Assembly (NCBI GenBank): GCA_019242065.1
Contig: JAFAWJ010000493.1
Span: forward strand, 1-16,026
Reading direction: 5' to 3'
Source: Chloroflexota bacterium
GTDB taxonomy: Bacteria; Chloroflexota; UBA6077; CF-72
Length of the DNA stretch: 16,026 nt
Shown: positions 1-12,444 of the stretch, piece by piece
Layout of the letters: every line of letters begins with the position of its first letter
Position numbering within the stretch: position 1 is the stretch's first letter
Notes under the pieces: generated by a model
The model's input: the letters and a program-made list of their open reading frames with translations, nothing else
The model's database searches: none
Told to the model about the DNA's origin: nothing
Translations under genes and position numbers: made by a program

Positions 1-109
1 ACCGCACTGGGCCATCTTCCCCGGCCTGCTGATCTTCCTGGCCGTCCTCTCCATCAACTACATCGGCGACGGTCTGAGAGACGCGCTCGATCCTCGGAAG
101 ACGCAATAG
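1..109 (+). CDS. Oligopeptide/dipeptide ABC transporter permease, C-terminal end (5' truncated)
   Basis: The reading frame starting at base 2 encodes the last 35 residues of a protein and stops at TAG 107-109. The peptide contains [20 protein letters not shown] followed by DALDPR. A hydrophobic final helix leading into [11 protein letters not shown] is the hallmark C-terminus of DppC/OppC-type permeases of peptide ABC importers, which form half of the membrane channel. Everything upstream, including the EAA loop that contacts the ATPase, lies outside the window. Substrate cannot be inferred, because this family also moves nickel, opines and sugars. It is probably the last gene of its operon, as a long gene-free stretch with strong hairpins follows. 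Confidence 0.85.
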
Positions 110-121
110 GTTCGTTTTGGA

Positions 122-195
122 GGGAGTCCGCGCATGCGCGGACTCCCCAAGGTGGCGCATGCGCCACCTTGCCCAGCGGCACATGTGCCGCTGGG
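122..195. repeat. Three abutting perfect palindromes, each centred on CATG
   Basis: Three exact palindromes follow each other with no base between them: 122-147 (26 bases), 148-171 (24) and 172-195 (24). The left arms are GGGAGTCCGCG, CAAGGTGGCG and CCCAGCGGCA, each followed by CATG and then the exact reverse complement. As RNA they would form three back-to-back hairpins of 11, 10 and 10 base pairs, each with a CAUG tetraloop. The stem sequences differ while pairing stays perfect and the loop stays constant, so the structure or symmetry seems to be what is kept. The element starts 12 bases after the permease stop codon. There is no T-tract after it, so it is not a textbook terminator. A transcript-end stabiliser, a protein-binding array or a mobile REP-like element are all possible. 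Confidence 0.9.
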
Positions 196-417
196 TGCTA
201 ACGCAACGGGTCAGGGCGCCTGCGGTCCCCCGCCGCCAGTCACTCCCTTCGGTCGTTCCTTCCCGCGGCGACCCCCCGCGTACGTGCTTACCGCGGTTCG
301 GGCTTACTGATCGCCACGCGTGGGCACTGGGGTGATGCGACCCTTCTGGGAGCACCGCGCCACGGATGTCGGCGTCCCAGCCTATTCAGGTGGACCAGGG
401 CAACGCCGTCCCGCTCG

Positions 418-492
418 CGCGTGACGCTCACGACAGGCATGCGCCAACGGTAACATCGGGAGGACTCTGTATCGTTCGCGTGACGCCACGAC
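418..492. repeat. Imperfect direct repeat CGCGTGACGC(T)CACGAC
   Basis: CGCGTGACGCTCACGAC at 418-434 recurs at 477-492 as CGCGTGACGCCACGAC, differing by one deleted T. The first copy can also pair with itself (CGTGA, loop CGC, TCACG at 420-432); the deletion breaks that symmetry in the second copy. Each copy is followed, at different distances, by CGGGAGGACTC (457-467 and 541-551). The same two words in the same order suggest a partial duplication or two binding sites upstream of the surface-protein gene. The function is unknown. Confidence 0.5.
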
Positions 493-557: not shown

Positions 558-890
558 ATGCTGAAAAGCGCACTTGCCGGCCGCTGGATGGTCGGGCTAA
601 TCCTGGTACTCACCATCTGGTTAAGCGCGCAGGTCGGTGCGGCCCTCGCGGCACCCGACACCCTGTCTGCCTCACCCGAGCTCGCCCAGGGTGTGCTGGC
701 GACCCCGACTCCGTTCCGCTTCCTAACGCCGACGCCGTTCGTCCCGGGTGCCACGACCACCACGACGCGGCCAGCCACGGCGCCCAACGCCGGCGGCTTC
801 CCCATGGAGCTTGCCTTCCCAATCCTGGCAGGTGGTCTGGCGGCCATCGGCGGTGGCTCGCTGGTTCTCCGGCGTAAGACCGCCCGCTGA
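558..890 (+). CDS. Small secreted protein with a C-terminal membrane anchor and sorting-like signal
   Basis: This 110-residue protein has an N-terminal signal peptide (hydrophobic core about residues 11-30, likely cleavage near GAALA/AP). A short Thr/Pro-rich spacer follows (ATPTPF, FLTPTPF, a run of Thr around 66-70). The C-terminus reads APNAGGF (75-81), a hydrophobic helix (84-104) and the basic tail RRKTAR. That three-part tail is how sortase substrates end, but APNAGG is not a canonical LPxTG. The start is supported by GGAGG at 543-547. The next gene encodes a sortase and overlaps its 3' end, so substrate and enzyme are probably co-produced. A plain tail-anchored surface protein is the alternative. 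Almost the whole exported part is spacer, so it may act as a stalk or carrier rather than an enzyme. Confidence 0.75.
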   Translation: MLKSALAGRWMVGLILVLTIWLSAQVGAALAAPDTLSASPELAQGVLATPTPFRFLTPTPFVPGATTTTTRPATAPNAGGFPMELAFPILAGGLAAIGGGSLVLRRKTAR

Positions 891-2568
891 TTGGCGGCGC
901 CGAGCGATCGGCGTCGGCCTCATCGCGATTGGCGTCGGCGGCGTCGGCCTCGCGTCGTGGGTGTACTACGACGCCTGGGCTCAGCGCCAGGCCTTCGACG
1001 CCTCGCCTGAGGCGGCAGCTCTCCAGCGTCAGGCCGACGCGCCCACGCCGGTGTGGGTCGACGCTACCCCACAAGCGGACTCGGCAGCCCCAACGGATGT
1101 CATCGCGCCGGTTCCTACGCCGCACGGACCTGACATTCCGTTGTTCGACGTCGTGCCGACACCCGCCGCCACCGCCACAGCCGACCAGCTGTCGCTCGAC
1201 TCGGTCGACTTCCGCTTCCTGGACCCACCCCAGCCCGGCGCACACGCGCGTGTGGCATTCACCCTCTCCAATCACGCCAACGTGACCAGTAGCCGGATTC
1301 TGCTCGGCATCAATTCCGATTGGTTCGACGCCTACAGCATCATCGGCACCGGCCCGGCCGTCTCGGAGGATCGCGTCGACGACAACGGTCTGCGCACCTT
1401 CAACTTTCCACCGATCGCGGCCCAGGAATCGGCCACCTACGAGCTCGACGTCACGTCGACCAAGGAGGGCACCACCGCACCGTCGGTCACGGTGCTGGCC
1501 GTAACTGGCGACACGGTTGGCGAAGTCGACGCGCCGCAGACGTTTGCGCCGCCACCGCGGCCCGGGCCAGTCATGGCCGTCGATATTCCCCGCCTCCAGC
1601 TCCACACCGGCGTCCTGCAGGTCGCCTGGGAGCCGCCACCGTTCACCGTCGGTCAGATCGAAGACACCGCCAACATCAGTCAGGGCAATACCGTGCTCGT
1701 CGGCCACCTCACCGGCCTGGCCGGCAACGTCTTTGCCCACCTGGACCAGCTCCAGCCTGGCGACGAGATCACCGCCACCTCGCGCGGCTTGCCGTACAAG
1801 TTCGTCGTGAGTCGCACCTTCGTCGGCGCCAATACCGATTCGTCGCCCATCGATCCCGAAGCTGATCCGCGCCTGACGTTGATGACCTGCACTGGCGTGT
1901 GGAACCCCTTCACGCACGACTACTCCCAGCGGCTGTGGGTGATCGCCGAACCGCCCGACCAGGCCGCCGTCACTATTGCCAACGCGCAGGCAACGGCGAC
2001 CGTCGTATCCGCGACCGCCACCGCGCAGGCTACCGAAGACGCGGCCGCGACCGCGACGGCTGCCAATGCAACCGCCACCGCCGTCGCGCTGCTGCCCACC
2101 GCGACGCCGGTGCCAACGCCCTTCGCCGGCGAGCCGTCGCTGCCCGGCGGTATCGGCAACACACGCGTGAATCTGGAGAAGACCTTCGGTCAAGCCACTG
2201 GCGAAACTGGCGGCAAACTCGTGGTCTTTCGTCAGCCCGGCAAGGAGGTGCACGTCGAGTTTTCGCCCGATCCGCCCCGCGCCCTGCTGGTCGCCGAGAT
2301 GCTGACGCCGCCCTTGGCCTTTGATGCCGCGGTGCGCGACGCCCGCAAGTTGTTCCCCAGTGACGCCCAACCACGTGATTCCGCACCCGAGGGGAACGCG
2401 CAGTTCGTCGTCGAGCGCTTCACCAGCCCGCAACTGGCGCAGGCCCTGTCGCTGACCAGCGGCGACTTTTCGGTGATCTACACGAAGAACTCGGCGGGTG
2501 CGATCAGCAGCATCGTGCTTGGTCTCGGCGACGACCTGGACGCGCTGCAAAGCGACGCGAAGCGCTAG
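853..2568 (+). CDS. Membrane-anchored sortase with extra N- and C-terminal extracellular domains
   Basis: Sortases cut a sorting motif in exported proteins and join them to a surface acceptor. Counting from GTG 853 (571 residues), the order is: membrane helix (about 18-38), a Pro/Ala-rich linker, a beta-rich region (about 112-230) resembling Ig-like/DUF11-type modules, the sortase core (about 240-370), a Thr/Ala-rich spacer (about 375-424) and a C-terminal domain (about 425-571) I do not recognise. The catalytic set is present: His285 in VGHLTG, Cys346 in TLMTC and Arg360 in SQRLWV. Sortases usually run 200-300 residues, so this one is unusually long. Start choice is uncertain: GTG 853 or GTG 832 keep the helix near the N-terminus and overlap the preceding gene by 38 or 59 bases, and GTG 748 would add an unlikely Pro/Arg-rich stretch. 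No clear Shine-Dalgarno site is seen. The core is solid; class and substrate are not. Confidence 0.85.
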   Translation: MARWFSGVRPPADWRRRAIGVGLIAIGVGGVGLASWVYYDAWAQRQAFDASPEAAALQRQADAPTPVWVDATPQADSAAPTDVIAPVPTPHGPDIPLFDVVPTPAATATADQLSLDSVDFRFLDPPQPGAHARVAFTLSNHANVTSSRILLGINSDWFDAYSIIGTGPAVSEDRVDDNGLRTFNFPPIAAQESATYELDVTSTKEGTTAPSVTVLAVTGDTVGEVDAPQTFAPPPRPGPVMAVDIPRLQLHTGVLQVAWEPPPFTVGQIEDTANISQGNTVLVGHLTGLAGNVFAHLDQLQPGDEITATSRGLPYKFVVSRTFVGANTDSSPIDPEADPRLTLMTCTGVWNPFTHDYSQRLWVIAEPPDQAAVTIANAQATATVVSATATAQATEDAAATATAANATATAVALLPTATPVPTPFAGEPSLPGGIGNTRVNLEKTFGQATGETGGKLVVFRQPGKEVHVEFSPDPPRALLVAEMLTPPLAFDAAVRDARKLFPSDAQPRDSAPEGNAQFVVERFTSPQLAQALSLTSGDFSVIYTKNSAGAISSIVLGLGDDLDALQSDAKR

Positions 2569-2572
2569 GAGA

Positions 2573-2604
2573 TTGTTGGCTCCCCCGCCGGCGGCGTCTA
2601 TAGT
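2573..2604 (+). promoter_or_regulatory. Candidate promoter giving a nearly leaderless glucosaminidase mRNA
   Basis: TATAGT at 2599-2604 is a good -10 match. TTGTTG (2573-2578, 20-base spacer) or TTGGCT (2577-2582, 16-base spacer) could serve as -35. The GTG start lies at 2615, ten bases after the -10, so a transcript would carry almost no leader. No Shine-Dalgarno sequence is present, which fits leaderless translation. Confidence 0.4.
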
Positions 2605-2614
2605 CCGCCCGACC

Positions 2615-3688
2615 GTGCCTCGGCTGTTCACTCTTTTCGCCGCCACTGCACTGGCCCTGGCTGCGATTGCTCCGACGGCCGCCGCGCAGTCGGACGATCA
2701 ATCGGTTACCGTGGCCACCGTCACGTCCTCGTCCAAGAGTCACCTCCCGGCCTGGGTCCAGACTGTCCATGACCACGCCGCCGTGTACCAGGCCGACGCG
2801 GACGACGATCGGATCAGCGCCACGCTTGCGAGCTCCAGCTTCCTGCGCGTCGTCGATGGCGGCACCTCGCGTCTGCAAGTCCAGGCGTACGACGACAGCG
2901 GCAATCCCGCCCTCACCGGCTGGGTCGACGCCGAACAGGTCGAACCCTCGGCACCGGCCATCGGCTGGCTCGTCAGTTCGACGCCCACTACGCTCTGGAG
3001 CGCTGACGACGCGAGCGCCAGCGCGCTGGGACGCCTCGATCGTTTCACTCCGCTGCAGCAAGTCGACGGTCCCGTCCTGAGCCGCGTGCTCGTGCGCGTG
3101 TATCGGCCTGACTTCAGCGGCGTGGTCGACGAAGGCTGGGTCGATACAGCCGACACCGGTCCGGCCCTGGCGCCGCATACGCACGTACCGCCGCCAACTG
3201 GGGCTTCGGCGAGTCCCACCAGCCCCAGTCAGCAGGCCTTCCTGGATGCCACCATCCAGGCCGCCCGCCGCGACACGGTCCGGACGCATGTGCCAGCCAG
3301 CGTGACCGTCGCTCAGGCGATCCTCGAATCGAACTGGGGCCGCTCGACGCTGGCCGAGGACGCCAATAACTATTTCGGCATGAAGGTCATGGGGACGCTC
3401 GGCAACGACGGCGTGGTGTGGATGCCGACCTCCGAGTACGACGATTCGGGCGCGCTGCAGTCCACGACCAGCGCGTTCCGCGCCTACAAGAGCCTCGCCG
3501 ATTCAGTTGCCGACCACGGCCACCTGCTGGCCTATTCCTCGCACTACGCGTCGGCGATGCAGGCGACTGACGATCCACAGCAGTTTGCGACGCTGGTCGC
3601 CCAGGATGGCTACAGCAGTGACCCGACGTACGCCGACAAGCTGATCAATCTGATGGATCAATACAACCTGTACCAGTTAGATCAATAG
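2615..3688 (+). CDS. Secreted SH3-like domain glucosaminidase (peptidoglycan hydrolase)
   Basis: This 357-residue protein begins with a signal peptide (residues 1-24, ending PTAAAQ). Two SH3-like repeats follow (about 45-113 and 115-185), each ending in a GWVD motif typical of bacterial SH3 cell-wall-binding modules. After a Pro/Ser linker comes a glucosaminidase domain of the FlgJ/LytG type (about 204-357): the catalytic glutamate is Glu238 in AILESNWGRS, followed by NNYFGMK and FRAYKS, all conserved in this family. It would cleave the glycan of peptidoglycan outside the cell. An upstream in-frame start at 2498 would run through the sortase 3' end, whereas GTG 2615 puts the signal peptide at the N-terminus. 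It lies 46 bases after the sortase stop and ends 4 bases from convergent pyrE. There is no sorting signal, so it is probably released or held through its SH3 domains. Confidence 0.88.
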   Translation: MPRLFTLFAATALALAAIAPTAAAQSDDQSVTVATVTSSSKSHLPAWVQTVHDHAAVYQADADDDRISATLASSSFLRVVDGGTSRLQVQAYDDSGNPALTGWVDAEQVEPSAPAIGWLVSSTPTTLWSADDASASALGRLDRFTPLQQVDGPVLSRVLVRVYRPDFSGVVDEGWVDTADTGPALAPHTHVPPPTGASASPTSPSQQAFLDATIQAARRDTVRTHVPASVTVAQAILESNWGRSTLAEDANNYFGMKVMGTLGNDGVVWMPTSEYDDSGALQSTTSAFRAYKSLADSVADHGHLLAYSSHYASAMQATDDPQQFATLVAQDGYSSDPTYADKLINLMDQYNLYQLDQ

Positions 3689-3692
3689 AGAC

Positions 3693-4220
3693 CTACAGGC
3701 CGAGTTGCGTGCGGGTGAACAGAGCCTGAAAGGGCACGCCGCGAGCGGCGAACGCGTCAGGACCGCCCTGCTCGCGATCGACCACCACCACCGCGCCCAG
3801 CACCTCGGCGCCCGCGCCGCGTAGCTCGTCCACCGCCGTCAACGCCGCGCCGCCGGTGGTCACCACGTCTTCGATCAGCAGCACCCGCTCGCCCGCTTCG
3901 AGCGCACCTTCAATCTGCTTCGAAGTGCCATAGTCCTTCGGCTTGTCGGTGCGCACAATGACCATCGGCAGCCCGGTCTCCAGCGAGACGGCCGTCACCA
4001 GCGGCACGGCGCCGAGCACCGGTCCGGCCAACCGCTGCGTACCGGGCGGGACCAGCGCGGACAGCGCGACGGCCAGTCGCCGCAGCAGCGTGGGCTGCGT
4101 CGTAAACAGGTACTTATCGATGTAGTAGCTGCTGCGCGCCCCCGACCGCAGCAGGAAGTCCCCCCGCAGCACGGCCGTTTGCACCAGGTCGCGCCCCAGT
4201 GCGTCGTCTGTGGTACTCAT
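3693..4220 (-). CDS. pyrE: Orotate phosphoribosyltransferase
   Basis: This cytoplasmic enzyme adds ribose-5-phosphate from PRPP to orotate, giving OMP in de novo pyrimidine synthesis. The 175-residue product shows the family's substrate segment RSSYYIDKY (29-37), the flexible catalytic loop region RTDKPKDYG (90-98) and the PRPP-binding motif LLIEDVVTTGG (114-124). Length is a little short of the usual 180-220. I chose ATG 4220 because it gives the standard N-terminus; GGAGGG lies upstream but only about 2-3 bases away. A further in-frame start lies at 4262. Its 5' part overlaps the end of pyrD by 107 bases in another frame, so translation is probably coupled. It converges on the glucosaminidase gene with a 4-base gap. 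Confidence 0.92.
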   Translation of the reverse strand: MSTTDDALGRDLVQTAVLRGDFLLRSGARSSYYIDKYLFTTQPTLLRRLAVALSALVPPGTQRLAGPVLGAVPLVTAVSLETGLPMVIVRTDKPKDYGTSKQIEGALEAGERVLLIEDVVTTGGAALTAVDELRGAGAEVLGAVVVVDREQGGPDAFAARGVPFQALFTRTQLGL

Positions 4221-5259: not shown

Positions 5260-6843
5260 GTGGCCACCGAAACTCGGCCAGCAGCTATCTCGGCTGATTC
5301 GATTCCCAACGCGTTCAACGTTGCGACCTACTTCGTCGACCGCAACGTCACCGAAGGTCGCGCCGACAACATCGCCGTCGAATATGGCGATCAGCGCATC
5401 ACCTATCAAGAGGTTCTCCACAACGTCAATCGCTTCGGCAACGCGCTACGCGACACGCTTGGCGTGCGCATCGAAGAACGCATCGTGCTCCTGCTGCTCG
5501 ATTGCCCCGAGTACGTGTACAGCTTCTTTGGCGCAATCAAAGTCGGCGCGATTCCGATCCCGACCAGCACGCTCTTCAAGCCGGCCGACTACGCCTACAT
5601 TTTGAATGATTCGCGCGCACGGGTGGTGGTGATCAGCGAAGCCTTGCTGCCACAGCTCCAGGCCATCCCCCGCGACAGCCTCCGCTACCTGCGCGACGTT
5701 GTCGTCGTCGGTCAAGTACCGCCGCCGCCCGACTGCCGCGCTTTCGACGAGCTGATCGCCAACCAGCCCACCCGGCTCGATGCCGAACCCACGAGCAAAG
5801 ATGACGCCGCCTTCTGGCTGTACTCATCCGGCAGCACCGGGGCACCCAAGGGCTGCGTCCACCTCCACCACGACATGCTCATCTGCACCGAGTCGTACGC
5901 GCGAACAGTCCTGGGCATGACCGAGCAGGACCGCTGCTTCAGCGTTGCCAAGTTGTTCTTCGCCTATGGGCTCGGCAACGCGCTGTTCTTCCCGTTTGGC
6001 GTCGGAGCCACGAGCATTCTGTTCCCCGGCCCGCCGACGCCCGCCAACGTGTTCGAGACGGTCAGCCGGTATCGTCCGACGCTGTTCTTCTCAGTGCCGA
6101 CCAACTACGCCATGCTGCTGGCCCACGCCGCCGAGTGCGACTTCGGATCGGTGCGCTGGGGCGTCTCGGCCGGCGAAGCCCTGCCAGCGGCGGTCTTCGA
6201 GCGCTTTCGGGCACGCTTCGGCGTGACCATCCTCGATGGCATCGGATCGACCGAGATCGGCCACATCTTCATCTCCAACCAGCCCGGCGCCATCCGGCCG
6301 GGTTCCAGCGGCAAGCCGGTGGCCGGTTACACGTCAAAGATCGTCGACGACGATGGCCAACCCGTGACACGCGCTGAGATCGGCAACCTGCTGGTGCGCG
6401 GCGACTCCACGTGCGCGCAGTACTGGAACAAGCACGAAAAGACGAAGGACACGATCGAAGGTCACTGGATTCACACGGGCGACAAATACTGGGAGGACGA
6501 GGACGGCTTCTTCTGGTACGCCGGACGCGGCGACGACATGCTCAAGGTCGGCGGGATCTGGGTCAGCCCGATCGAAGTCGAAAACGCGCTGATCGAGCAC
6601 CCGGCCGTGCTCGAGGCCGGCGTGGTCGGGCGCGAGGACGGCGACGAGCTCGTCAAGCCGATGGCGTACGTGGTGTGCGCCCGGGGCGTGAGTGCCTCAC
6701 CGGAGCTCGAGCGCGAGCTGCAGGCGTTCGTGCGCCAGCGTCTGGCCGAGTACAAGCGGCCGCGCTGGGTCGCCTTCGTCGACGAGCTGCCCAAGACGGG
6801 CACGGGCAAGATCCAGCGATTCAAGTTGCGGCAACACGCGTGA
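5260..6843 (+). CDS. Benzoate-CoA ligase family protein
   Basis: This ATP- and CoA-dependent acid:CoA ligase of the adenylate-forming (ANL) superfamily has 527 residues, the usual length for benzoate-CoA ligases. It starts with ATYFVDRNVTEGRADNIAV, characteristic of that subfamily. The ATP P-loop is YSSGSTGAPKG (188-198), the adenylate motif is DGIGSTEIGHIF (326-337), the hinge region is GDKYWEDEDGFFWYAGRGDD (407-426) and the catalytic lysine is Lys517 in PKTGTGK. It would activate benzoate or a related aromatic or short-chain acid, with AMP and pyrophosphate formed in the first half reaction. No ring-opening or ring-reducing genes are nearby, so the true substrate is inference. A strong ribosome binding site supports the GTG start. 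Confidence 0.85.
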   Translation: MATETRPAAISADSIPNAFNVATYFVDRNVTEGRADNIAVEYGDQRITYQEVLHNVNRFGNALRDTLGVRIEERIVLLLLDCPEYVYSFFGAIKVGAIPIPTSTLFKPADYAYILNDSRARVVVISEALLPQLQAIPRDSLRYLRDVVVVGQVPPPPDCRAFDELIANQPTRLDAEPTSKDDAAFWLYSSGSTGAPKGCVHLHHDMLICTESYARTVLGMTEQDRCFSVAKLFFAYGLGNALFFPFGVGATSILFPGPPTPANVFETVSRYRPTLFFSVPTNYAMLLAHAAECDFGSVRWGVSAGEALPAAVFERFRARFGVTILDGIGSTEIGHIFISNQPGAIRPGSSGKPVAGYTSKIVDDDGQPVTRAEIGNLLVRGDSTCAQYWNKHEKTKDTIEGHWIHTGDKYWEDEDGFFWYAGRGDDMLKVGGIWVSPIEVENALIEHPAVLEAGVVGREDGDELVKPMAYVVCARGVSASPELERELQAFVRQRLAEYKRPRWVAFVDELPKTGTGKIQRFKLRQHA

Positions 6844-9760: not shown

Positions 9761-10911
9761 CGGCCGTCCAGTAACGTCAGGGTGAGCGGCACCCACAGCC
9801 GCACGCGCGTGCCGCGTCCCGTACTCGCCGGCGAGGTGATCTCCAGCTCGGCCCCGATCTCGGCCGCGCGGTCGCGCATGCCGAGCAGCCCCTGGCCCGC
9901 CGGCGTGCGCCGCGGCGCAAACCCGTGCCCGGCATCCGTCACGCACAGGCTCAGCTCGTCTGCCGAAAAGCGCAGCTCCACCTCAACCTCGGCCACGCCC
10001 GCGTGCCGCGCCACGTTGCTCAACGCCTCCTGGGCCACCCGATACACGGCATATTCAATGGCACCCGGAACCCGCCGCGGCACGCCACAGATCTTCAGCG
10101 CCACGTGCAGCCCCAGGTCGCCCCAGGCATCGGCGTGCGCCCGCAGCGCCGCCACGAGTCCAAGGTCCTCCAAGGCAGCCGGCCGCTGGTTCTGGCTCAT
10201 GCGTCGCACGCCGTCGAGGGTGGTGCCCAGCAGCGTCTGGACGCGCTCGAGCCGTTCGGCCGCCGCCTCCGGCCGAGCCAGGTCCAGCGCCAGCAGATCC
10301 AGCTGCCGGCCCAGCGCCACCAGCGCCTGAATGGTGTCGTCGTGGAGGTCGCGCGCCAATCGAGCTCGCTCCTCGGCGGCGGCCAGCTGGCGTGAGTCCG
10401 CCGCCAACCGTGCATTGTCGATCGCCTGGGCCAGCTGCCCGGCCAAGCCGCGCAGATACGGCACGTCGGCAGCGCCGAAGGCATCCAGCCGTTCGCTCTC
10501 GATGTTCAGAACCCCGATCGTTCGACGCCCCAGCCGTAGCGGCACGTCCAGCTCAGCCCGGGTGTGCTCGCGGCCGGGGCCGAGAATGTAGCGCGGATCT
10601 TTCTGCACGTCGTTGACCAGACACGGCCGGCCGGATCGGGCCACCCAGCCGGTCAGACCGTGGCCGACGAGCACACGGAACGCACGCGGCAGCCGACGTT
10701 CCGGCGGATACGCGGCCGCCTGGAACAGCCGTCGCGCGTCGAGCGGATCGACCAGGTTGATGCCGACCAGGTCATAGCCAAAGGCCTGGGCGATCAGCCG
10801 GCACGCTTCGGGCAGCAGCACCTCCAGGTCCAGCATGGAGGTCACGCGCTGACCAAGCGCCAGGACCACACGCAGCCGCTGCGCTTCTGAGACGTCCGCG
10901 GAGGCCTGCAC
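9757..10911 (-). CDS. Soluble GAF-domain sensor histidine kinase
   Basis: The 384-residue product has no membrane helix. A GAF domain fills about residues 15-165 (GHGLTGWVARSG and LRLGRRTIGVLNIES are typical of its ligand-binding core). The phospho-acceptor region (HisKA_3) has His190 in ARDLHDDTIQAL, and the ATPase domain shows the N box around Asn299 (EALSNVARHA), G1 DAGHGF (326-331) and G2 GLLGM (341-345). This is the NarX/DegS/LiaS-like kinase class that pairs with LuxR-type regulators, and such a regulator follows directly with an ATGA overlap. The signal must be intracellular, possibly a small molecule, redox or gas signal in the GAF pocket. No Cys/His cluster for haem or iron is evident. 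The start is GTG. Confidence 0.93.
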   Translation of the reverse strand: MQASADVSEAQRLRVVLALGQRVTSMLDLEVLLPEACRLIAQAFGYDLVGINLVDPLDARRLFQAAAYPPERRLPRAFRVLVGHGLTGWVARSGRPCLVNDVQKDPRYILGPGREHTRAELDVPLRLGRRTIGVLNIESERLDAFGAADVPYLRGLAGQLAQAIDNARLAADSRQLAAAEERARLARDLHDDTIQALVALGRQLDLLALDLARPEAAAERLERVQTLLGTTLDGVRRMSQNQRPAALEDLGLVAALRAHADAWGDLGLHVALKICGVPRRVPGAIEYAVYRVAQEALSNVARHAGVAEVEVELRFSADELSLCVTDAGHGFAPRRTPAGQGLLGMRDRAAEIGAELEITSPASTGRGTRVRLWVPLTLTLLDGR

Positions 10912-11026: not shown

Positions 11027-11227
11027 ATGAGCTATCAGTACCTGTTTTGCGCGACGTGCGGGACGCGGCGCGCCGGTCATGGCTACCAGTGTTCGGTGTG
11101 CGGCAGCCTGCTGCGGCACGAGGTCGAGCGCAAGCACGCGGCGTCGCCGTTCACCCTGCAGACGACCGTCCATGGCCACAAGCCCGTCCGCATCGAACCG
11201 CCGGTCCCGACGCAGGTCGCCGCCTGA
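11027..11227 (+). CDS. Small zinc-ribbon protein
   Basis: This 66-residue protein has two CxxC knuckles, CATC (8-11) and CSVC (21-24), separated by a basic turn, the standard arrangement for one structural zinc ion. The rest is a short basic/hydrophobic tail (HEVERKHAASPFTL) with a Pro-rich end. GAGGAGAAG at 11011-11019 lies 7 bases before ATG 11027 and fixes this start over a longer in-frame alternative at 10973. Such proteins may bind nucleic acid or another protein, but no specific role can be assigned. It is divergent from the kinase gene and precedes the epoxide hydrolase. Confidence 0.75.
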   Translation: MSYQYLFCATCGTRRAGHGYQCSVCGSLLRHEVERKHAASPFTLQTTVHGHKPVRIEPPVPTQVAA

Positions 11228-11244
11228 CCCACACGCCCCGTCCG

Positions 11245-11284
11245 TGATCGTGCTGGCGGCAACCGAGTACCGTTAGCACGATCA
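11245..11284. promoter_or_regulatory. Long inverted repeat directly before the epoxide hydrolase start
   Basis: TGATCGTGCT (11245-11254) and AGCACGATCA (11275-11284) are exact reverse complements, 10 bases each, 20 bases apart, ending 2 bases before ATG 11287. As RNA the stem could extend inward through two G-U and three G-C pairs (11255-11259 with 11270-11274), leaving a 10-base loop. No Shine-Dalgarno site precedes the start codon. As DNA it fits a dimeric repressor operator overlapping the transcription start; as RNA it would mask the start region. No T-tract follows, so it is not a normal terminator for the zinc-ribbon gene. Confidence 0.7.
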
Positions 11285-11286
11285 GC

Positions 11287-12444
11287 ATGTCCGACCCGCG
11301 ACCGTTCACCCTTCACGTCGCGGATGCCACACTCGACGACCTCCAGCAACGGCTTGCCAGGGCCCGCTTTCCAGACCTCCCACCGCACGGCGAGGCCTGG
11401 GAATACGGCGCCGACGTCACGTACCTGCGCGACCTGGTTGGCTACTGGCGCGACGGCTTCGACTGGCGGAAGCAAGAAGCCGCGCTGAACGCGTTTCCCC
11501 AGTTCACGGCCGAGGTCGCCGGTATCAATCTGCACTTCCTGCACGTGCCCGGCGTCGGCCCGCGCCCGATGCCGCTGCTGCTGTCGCACGGCTGGCCCGG
11601 CTCGATCTGGGAGTTCTACAAGATCATTCCGCTGCTGACCGATCCGGGCCGCTTCGGCGGTGATCCGTCAGACGCGTTCACCGTCGTCGCGCCCTCGCTG
11701 CCTGGCTACACGCTCTCCTTTCAGCCGGGCCAGCCGCGCTTCGGGGTTGCCGAGATGGGCAACGCCTTCGTCGAATTGATGCGCGACGTCCTGGGCTACG
11801 AGCGTTTCCTGGCCCAGGGCGGCGACTGGGGCTCCTTCATCTCGACCCATATCGGTCTGATCCATCCGTCCAGCACGCTCGGCGTCCACATCAACCTGAT
11901 CCCGTTGCGCCGAGAGCCGCCGAATCCCGCCCTGGCACAGACACCCGAGGTGCTGGCCTACCGGGACGAGCTCGATCACTGGCTGCGCGAAGAGACCGGC
12001 TATTCCGCCATCCAGGGCACGAAGCCTCAGACACTCGCCTTCGGCCTGACCGATTCACCAACGGGTCTCGCGGCGTGGATCGTCGAAAAATTCCGGACCT
12101 GGAGCGACAACCGCGGCAACCTCGAGAACAGCTTCTCCAGGGACGACCTGCTCACCAACGTCATGCTGTACTGGACGACCGGGGCCATTGCCAGCTCGTT
12201 CTGGCCGTACTACGTCCGACAACACGCGGGTTGGCCGCTGCCGAGCGCCGACCGACGCGTCGAAGTCCCCACGGCGTATCAGTCATTCCCGAAAGACATC
12301 CTCCACCCGCCCCGAGCGGTCGCCGAGCTTGCCTTCAACATCCAGCGCTGGACCGTCGCACCGCGCGGCGGCCACTTCGCGGCGCTGGAAGCACCCGACC
12401 TGCTGGCTGAAGACGTTCGCGCGTTCGCCCGCGCCCTGCGCTAG
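11287..12444 (+). CDS. Epoxide hydrolase (EHN domain plus alpha/beta hydrolase)
   Basis: This 385-residue enzyme opens epoxides to vicinal diols. The N-terminal EHN region (about 4-110) shows FTLHVADATLDDLQQRLARA and the conserved FPQF (70-73) typical of microsomal/juvenile-hormone-type epoxide hydrolases. The oxyanion-hole motif is HGWPG (101-105), the nucleophile Asp180 sits in GGDWG and the catalytic His363 in PRGGHFAALE. Lid tyrosines that could activate the oxirane are Tyr239 and Tyr331 (YQSFPKD). Length matches the family. It is likely a cytoplasmic detoxification or secondary-metabolism enzyme; the epoxide is unknown. It may be controlled through the inverted repeat just upstream. Confidence 0.92.
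   Translation: MSDPRPFTLHVADATLDDLQQRLARARFPDLPPHGEAWEYGADVTYLRDLVGYWRDGFDWRKQEAALNAFPQFTAEVAGINLHFLHVPGVGPRPMPLLLSHGWPGSIWEFYKIIPLLTDPGRFGGDPSDAFTVVAPSLPGYTLSFQPGQPRFGVAEMGNAFVELMRDVLGYERFLAQGGDWGSFISTHIGLIHPSSTLGVHINLIPLRREPPNPALAQTPEVLAYRDELDHWLREETGYSAIQGTKPQTLAFGLTDSPTGLAAWIVEKFRTWSDNRGNLENSFSRDDLLTNVMLYWTTGAIASSFWPYYVRQHAGWPLPSADRRVEVPTAYQSFPKDILHPPRAVAELAFNIQRWTVAPRGGHFAALEAPDLLAEDVRAFARALR

Follow-up and report, generated by a model that had tools for sequence, protein, structure and literature searches.

Three abutting palindromes with CATG centres in a Chloroflexota contig: the probable outer end of a dispersed miniature mobile element

Three palindromes joined end to end behind a permease gene in a Chloroflexota contig probably mark the outer end of a miniature mobile element that is dispersed, does not code for protein, and is organized as a REP/BIME-like mosaic of hairpins. 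The window (the whole stretch of DNA that was analysed, 16,026 nucleotides) carries one strong full triple of such palindromes, and at least 18 were found in one related genome (G002) and at least one in another (G001). When the window's dihydroorotate-dehydrogenase-like protein (a name assigned by eye) was searched against species genomes, the closest relatives proved to be Chloroflexota MAGs, the protein being 90% identical in G001 (locus L066), 87% in G002 (L001), 83% in G003 (L002), and 75% in G004 (L003). The reading of the palindromes as part of a mobile element is based on their repeated occurrence in G002 and G001, on stems in which both arms have changed together, and on sites that are occupied in one genome and empty in another.

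Build of the palindromes and of the repeat

Positions 122-195 match their preliminary description exactly, with perfect palindromes of 26, 24, and 24 nt that follow each other with zero spacer, form 37 pairs, and all have CATG at the centre (Table 1). The observed arms measure 13, 12, and 12 nt, compared with a longest arm of 11 when the window was shuffled 200 times by mononucleotide, and the RNA fold of positions 105-215 yields three hairpins with a z-score of -6.4 that was equalled in 0 of 200 shuffles. The stop codon of the permease gene does lie 12 nt ahead of base 122, and the permease call itself is based on the aligned part of L066 (6867-6977), which is the end of a gene for a 315-aa BPD_transp_1/OppC_N protein. 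An intrinsic terminator was rejected, since a T-tract is absent after the hairpins, as first described (a TTTT sits ahead of them instead), and none of eight terminator-scan matches falls at 110-200. A known structured RNA was likewise rejected, as the window has no Rfam match at gathering score. Elsewhere in the window (558-3688), proteins with a sortase domain and a glucosaminidase domain are encoded together with a small protein that has no Pfam match and ends in an LVLRRKTAR-type C-terminus, recognized by eye.

The first description ended the feature at position 195, a boundary that was not borne out. The palindromes form the first 80 bases of a repeat of ~185 bp, which spans ~115 to ~301 and begins about 5 nt behind the permease stop codon. 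The inner parts of this repeat were delimited with an alignment (A3) of the window and seven other copies, L099 among them.

Table 1. Coordinates of the repeat element, its parts, and the adjacent gene end in the window
Positions	Strand	Feature	Evidence
2-109	+	3' end of oligopeptide-type ABC transporter permease gene, stop TAG at 107-109	88% identity of window 2-112 to L066 6867-6977
115-301	+	Entire type I repeat (half-element, outer end left); ends approximate	80% identity of window 116-301 to L099 8702-8886, whose genomic surroundings differ
115-120	+	Outer terminal motif TTTTGG	Copy flanks, by eye
122-147	.	Palindrome 1 (outer), 26 nt, CATG centre	Direct reading, shuffle test
148-171	.	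Palindrome 2, 24 nt, CATG centre	Direct reading, shuffle test
172-195	.	Palindrome 3 (inner), 24 nt, CATG centre	Direct reading, shuffle test
195-230	+	Degraded counterparts of two small hairpins in relatives: GTGCTTCGCAC and GGGGGC..GCCCCC type	Alignment A3, by eye
231-270	+	Conserved inner block CGCCGCC...GCGGCG	Alignment A3
271-301	+	Conserved inner tail ACCCCCCGCGTACGTGCTTACCGCG and a few further bases	Alignment A3; BLAST edge at 301

The recurrent build in the analysed pieces of G002 and G001 consists of an outer palindrome, often GGAGCCCGCG-CATG-CGCGGGCTCC, followed by two 24-nt palindromes at a spacing of 0-2 nt and bordered by a TTTTGG-like outer flank (the "outer" side of each copy was assigned by hand). 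By eye, TTTGG-like outer flanks recur among the copies and CCAAA-like sequences recur at the opposite end. Two types can be told apart by what follows the triple: in type I, to which the window belongs, there are small hairpins, a conserved block around CGCCGCCAGTCGCTCC..GGTCGCTCCTTCCCGCGGCG, and the tail, and in type II there is CGCTGCGCTTGGCACGCCGCTGCGCGGCG. The inner block is also present in G003, a Chloroflexota MAG with no CATG stem-10 hairpin in the 116 kb examined. Half-elements are found singly, joined in inverted orientation to a length of about 380 bp, or shortened to a single palindrome. Two-ended copies with inverted triples were observed at L097, L149, L152, L102, and L163, and a half-element alone stands opposite an empty site at L099.

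G001 also contains another repeat of ~390 bp, which has GCGTGCTTTGGCACGCCGC-like ends, a series of GC hairpins, and no CATG triples, at the approximate places L163 13550-13945, L177 3392-3788, 7110-7510, and 9411-9806, L178 2612-3018, and L195 2464-2856. Its exact end motifs number 31 in G001, 5 in G002, and 0 in G003, and it resembles a type II interior alone.

Copies and empty sites in related genomes

A search of relatives for abutting CATG palindromes, with a covariance model built from the hits, had been proposed together with the first description and proved positive, revealing many copies, compensated stems, and insertion polymorphism. A simple pattern of two GCATGC at hairpin distance was matched 31 times in G002 (versus 20 in the reversed control), 17 times in G001 (versus 13), 15 times in G003 (versus 13), and twice in G004 (versus 4), and further abutting palindromes were present among the matches of G002 and G001. 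With the covariance model R1, built from 12 triples, at least 56 matches at no fewer than 29 places were found in G002 and at least 22 matches at 15 or more places in G001 (E ≤ 0.01); these place counts are lower bounds, with 150 scored of about 7,000-17,000 candidates, and the weak G001 matches (E near 0.01) may include chance ones. Among the candidates scored, G003 gave one weak match (E = 0.002) and G004 gave none at E ≤ 0.01. The full triple is mainly a feature of G002 and the window, because abutting hairpins with at least 9 of 10 pairs are absent from the G001 pieces. Counts of hairpins and gene contexts here and below refer to 28 pieces of G002 (370,480 bases), 25 of G001 (405,685 bases), and 8 of G003 (116,398 bases) that were chosen for holding matches. 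When overlaps of 20 nt are allowed, 38 of the 39 runs or solo palindromes are located outside called genes.

Beyond these relatives, the distribution is narrow. Only G001 and G002 matched among the 29 genomes of a class survey (E ≤ 0.001), and the same two were the only matches among 400 genomes of a phylum survey conducted with strict filters (E ≤ 1e-4; 10 candidates scored per genome). Spread via plasmids or phages was rejected, since neither the plasmid nor the phage collection contains a match to window positions 110-310 at E ≤ 0.01.

Comparison of G002 with G001 demonstrates three copies that stand opposite empty sites. The element at L097 4440-4818, between livM- and livG-like genes, corresponds to 30 bp in G001; that at L097 6358-6738, behind a livF-like gene, to 2 bp between the aligned flanks; and that at L099 8702-8900, behind a purH-like gene, to 8 bp in G001 and 54 bp in G003 (all liv and purH names were assigned by eye). 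G003 also lacks an insert at the livM-livG site, as it does at the L099 site, and the livF site is outside its coverage. The interval that separates livJ- and livH-like genes holds a two-ended element in G002 and a solo palindrome in G001. Inspection by eye revealed no target-site duplication at any of the three empty sites, and the absence of the copies from G001 could be a result of loss instead. Two of the G002 inserts overlap or extend gene starts. The livG-like gene takes its start codon and initial codons (MSELLQ, versus MTDLLV in G001 and MAELLV in G003) from the final palindrome of a two-ended element (L097 4727-4799); this palindrome is perfect, and its arms differ in step from those of the commonest outer palindrome.

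The site of the triple palindrome in the window is variable as well. The window and L066 of G001 are collinear on both sides, with no similarity found for window positions 113-463, and L066 has a different hairpin ~40-60 nt behind the stop codon. A single conserved local regulator was therefore rejected, as L066 carries unrelated sequence with another hairpin at this place and L002 of G003 has no palindromes behind the stop codon. Two other repeats were noticed by eye in these comparisons. A hairpin repeat of the GCAGTCGAAAGGCTGCGGCCTTTCTCCCCAGG..CCTGGACCC type is found in both genomes (L066 ~6780-6840 in G001; L101 ~4060-4130 and L106 ~10245-10320 in G002), and the L066 hairpin of this type occupies the site that the triple palindrome has in the window. 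The other, CTCCCTCTCCC..GGGAGAGG, is found at L196 ~1350-1475 (G001, opposite the L149 element) and at L100 ~11175-11290, within the L100 element; similar strings are widespread in bacteria.

Paired arms and position behind stop codons

The sequence of the arms varies among copies, and the pairing is kept. In an alignment of 12 copies made by sequence alone (A1), 96.6% of 355 cells are paired, with 76 two-sided changes, 3 one-sided wobbles, and 12 unpaired cells. In a second alignment (A2), in which 20 triples were fitted to the model structure, 590 of the 597 pair cells are Watson-Crick and the remainder are G-U (2), A-C (4), or other (1), and where a cell deviates from the commonest pair, it does so on both sides in 126 instances and on a single side in 5. 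Pairings that are slid out of register drop to 36-44% paired. The left arm exists in 13, 12, and 12 versions in the three hairpins of A2, whose 60 units include 52 perfect ones. In a larger set, 68 of 81 units are perfect and the mismatches are G/T (6), A/C (4), and others (10); this set admitted units in runs at 7 of 10 pairs and solos at 9 of 10, so perfect symmetry was partly favoured by the way in which it was gathered. Pairing in RNA tolerates G-U. Since G-U is no commoner in these stems than its mirror image A-C, albeit in small numbers, we infer that symmetry seems to be kept up at the level of DNA while the arms drift.

The fixed CATG centre of the original description applies to 59 of the 60 aligned family units; as the remaining unit has a CACG loop, the centre is nearly, and not absolutely, fixed. 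When hairpins with a stem of 10, at most one mismatch, and a loop of 4 were collected from the G002 pieces (370 kb) irrespective of loop sequence, the loop was CATG in 64 of 98 (the next commonest loop occurs twice; a mononucleotide shuffle control yielded 21 hairpins), and CATG is found in 51 of 52 abutting hairpins. CATG loops account for 10 of 47 stem-10/loop-4 hairpins in G001 and 0 of 7 in G003, and no two abutting hairpins at 9 of 10 pairs are present in the G001 pieces; because the G002 and G001 pieces were picked for matches, these loop counts are not genome-wide rates.

This symmetry would be enforced on DNA while it is folded into single-strand hairpins or cruciforms, whether through selection on the folded forms or through mending of one arm from the other. 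A candidate hairpin-recognising enzyme could move the element, or template-switch copying between the arms could mend mismatches; correction of imperfect inverted repeats by template switching is known in E. coli and yeast (PMC7202029, PMC8604942).

Copies tend to be positioned shortly behind genes. The distance from stop codon to outer palindrome ranges from 2 to 27 nt, with a median of 13 (30 edges including solos, counting the stop of a frame of at least 80 codons within 40 nt). Such a stop is located within 25 nt of the outer edge at 19 of 29 edges, compared with 15.8% of intergenic positions drawn at random from these pieces (binomial p = 2e-9), the window edge being omitted because the end of the window cuts its gene. 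Three of the 19 stops terminate frames no longer than 83-99 codons (L097 2243, L102 1985, and L163 10077), and that at L097 2243 is opposite a called gene start. A stop of this kind is present on at least one side of 7 of 8 solos, three of which lie between convergent genes and behind both stops (L156, L157, and L165). In terms of called genes within 25 nt, outer edges face a gene end in 17 of 29 cases, a gene start in 4, and neither in 8; these genes were called with a home-made codon-usage caller, which ran one gene through an element (L097 6655).

This position, including that of the solos between convergent genes, would fit a structured RNA element at the 3' end, with hairpins selected in the mRNA as a terminator, exonuclease block, or ribosome brake and dispersal being incidental; an mRNA 3'-end protector was also among the initial suggestions. 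Reported effects of hairpins at this place would support the same reading, as REPs within 15 nt of a stop codon are reported to lower translation in E. coli, where they are discussed as ribosome brakes (PMC12306157), and clusters of hairpins behind stops are described as terminators for which poly A/U trails are not necessary (PMC8355165). The pairing data argue against selection in RNA, given that G-U (2 of 597) is no commoner than A-C (4) and that two-sided changes far outnumber one-sided ones. The position is also not exclusive to gene ends, since a called gene start is the neighbour at three right-hand ends (L097 2243, L097 4799, and L154 5526), nor to this family, since 4 of 12 edges of a different G001 repeat, used as a control, also lie no more than 25 nt from a stop. 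We therefore regard the RNA reading as improbable, although it deserves more weight than any of the other alternatives. If the palindromes are the end of a mobile element, transcripts of the host gene would end in three hairpins as a side effect, which may be tolerated or used for 3'-end protection, termination, or the slowing of ribosomes.

Probable mobility and likeness to known repeats

One candidate for the mover is the RAYT (TnpA_REP, Y1 HUH) transposase of ordinary REPs and REPINs. Resemblance to these repeats includes short intergenic palindromes, mosaic classes, inverted pairs, and solo remnants (PMC3116915, PMC8266576), as well as presence/absence polymorphism and a location near stops in some cases, and perfect palindromes are described in one REP group (PMC8266576). 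However, the window family has three abutting and mostly perfect 24-nt CATG palindromes per end, and none of 21 elements has, on either strand and up to 8 nt from either edge, the unpaired tetranucleotide GTAG or CGTC that tags one end of a REP. The Y1 transposase family PF01797 has no match in the copy-bearing genomes G001 and G002, an absence that is provisional in MAGs of unstated completeness, and its single match in G003 is in a genome with no strong triple; a control search gave matches in 5 of 14 named genomes. An ordinary REP or REPIN moved by RAYT is thus very unlikely. The preliminary description had suggested a REP-like mobile element copied by a single-strand transposase, of which the first part is supported in kind, because of the many copies, compensated stems, and insertion polymorphism, and the second is not, given the lack of Y1 matches and of the tag.

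As in REPs, a short palindrome is repeated in intergenic DNA, at a minimum of tens of places (29 in G002 and 15 in G001), and as in BIMEs, several palindrome classes occur in both orientations (half, two-ended, and solo forms). In REPINs, two inverted palindromes form the replicative unit; the present family has two-ended copies, but also the half-element that stands alone at L099. We do not file the element as a REP, because it has no GTAG/CGTC tag and a Y1 gene, though possible, was not found; it works like one. The GTAG- and CGTC-tagged repeats, including GTAG-23 of T. roseum, are likewise palindromic, GTAG repeats are known from Chloroflexi, and the CGTC families also seem to have no dedicated transposase (PMC3733652). 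In contrast to the tagless family described here, those repeats have stems of 5-13 bp and a tag at one end (PMC3733652).

Exact type II inner motifs in G001 form 11 neighbouring inward pairs 224-391 bp apart, and nine further motifs are unpaired, which the exactness of the pattern can cause. G002 has one inward pair on C23 (4534 and 6625), 2.1 kb apart, that encloses livG- and livF-like genes. A transposon with an internal gene was rejected here, since the C23 ends belong to two separate elements and the livG- and livF-like genes have an identical location in G001, where these ends are missing, and no gene-bearing copy was found with exact inner motifs in G001-G003. The family is similar to MITEs in being short, non-coding, and bounded by terminal inverted repeats (the two-ended copies of ~380 bp with inverted triples). 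As for the other marks of MITEs, examination by eye showed no target-site duplication at the three empty sites, and exact inner motifs led to no parent transposon.

Compensated stems also occur in mitochondrial double-hairpin elements. These and other repetitive hairpin elements of mitochondria are likewise potentially mobile, intergenic hairpins (PMC2800124), a likeness at the level of description. Hairpin-cluster terminators share the presence of at least two close hairpins soon after a stop, but are not known to have been described as dispersed perfect palindromes (PMC8355165). A description of tandem CATG palindromes was not found in the literature examined on palindromic and hairpin repeats, Chloroflexi included.

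An array of sites for a dimeric DNA-binding protein reading CATG, also raised at the outset, would account for the CATG in nearly all loops and for the constant 24-nt units and abutment of the full triples. The reading is weak because a protein that reads half-sites in duplex DNA would conserve bases and not self-complementarity, whereas beyond CATG the bases vary freely (each palindrome has 12-13 different arms, the two sides of which have changed in concert) and the symmetry does not; there is little chance that it is correct. A local accident or assembly artefact would agree with the lack of the element at the window's site in the nearest relative, but is refuted, almost to certainty, by copies of the same family on many contigs of two other MAGs, G001 and G002, in unrelated contexts.

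For the mobile element favoured here, a more specific picture can be proposed tentatively, and with a good deal less confidence than mobility itself. A Chloroflexota lineage may harbour mobile DNA that passes on self-complementarity, and not a sequence, as its heritable trait, in runs of three 24-nt hairpins that abut and have CATG loops. Their arms would be rewritten in matched pairs, and a hairpin-handling enzyme other than Y1 (RAYT), or a copying process, would move them and keep them perfect; they would dock ~10 nt behind stop codons, such that host mRNAs end in a triple hairpin.

The usual explanation for REPs is the Y1 transposase TnpA_REP. A REP-like life style with a CATG centre, no tag, and no Y1 gene found in the copy-bearing MAGs raises the question of which other process spreads and keeps the palindromes. 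The ratio of 126 two-sided to 5 one-sided changes makes this process testable, because the mutation spectrum expected from template-switch repair differs from that expected under selection by an enzyme. Sites behind stop codons that are occupied in one genome and empty in another, in turn, provide a natural test of the effect of three hairpins on the end of an mRNA.
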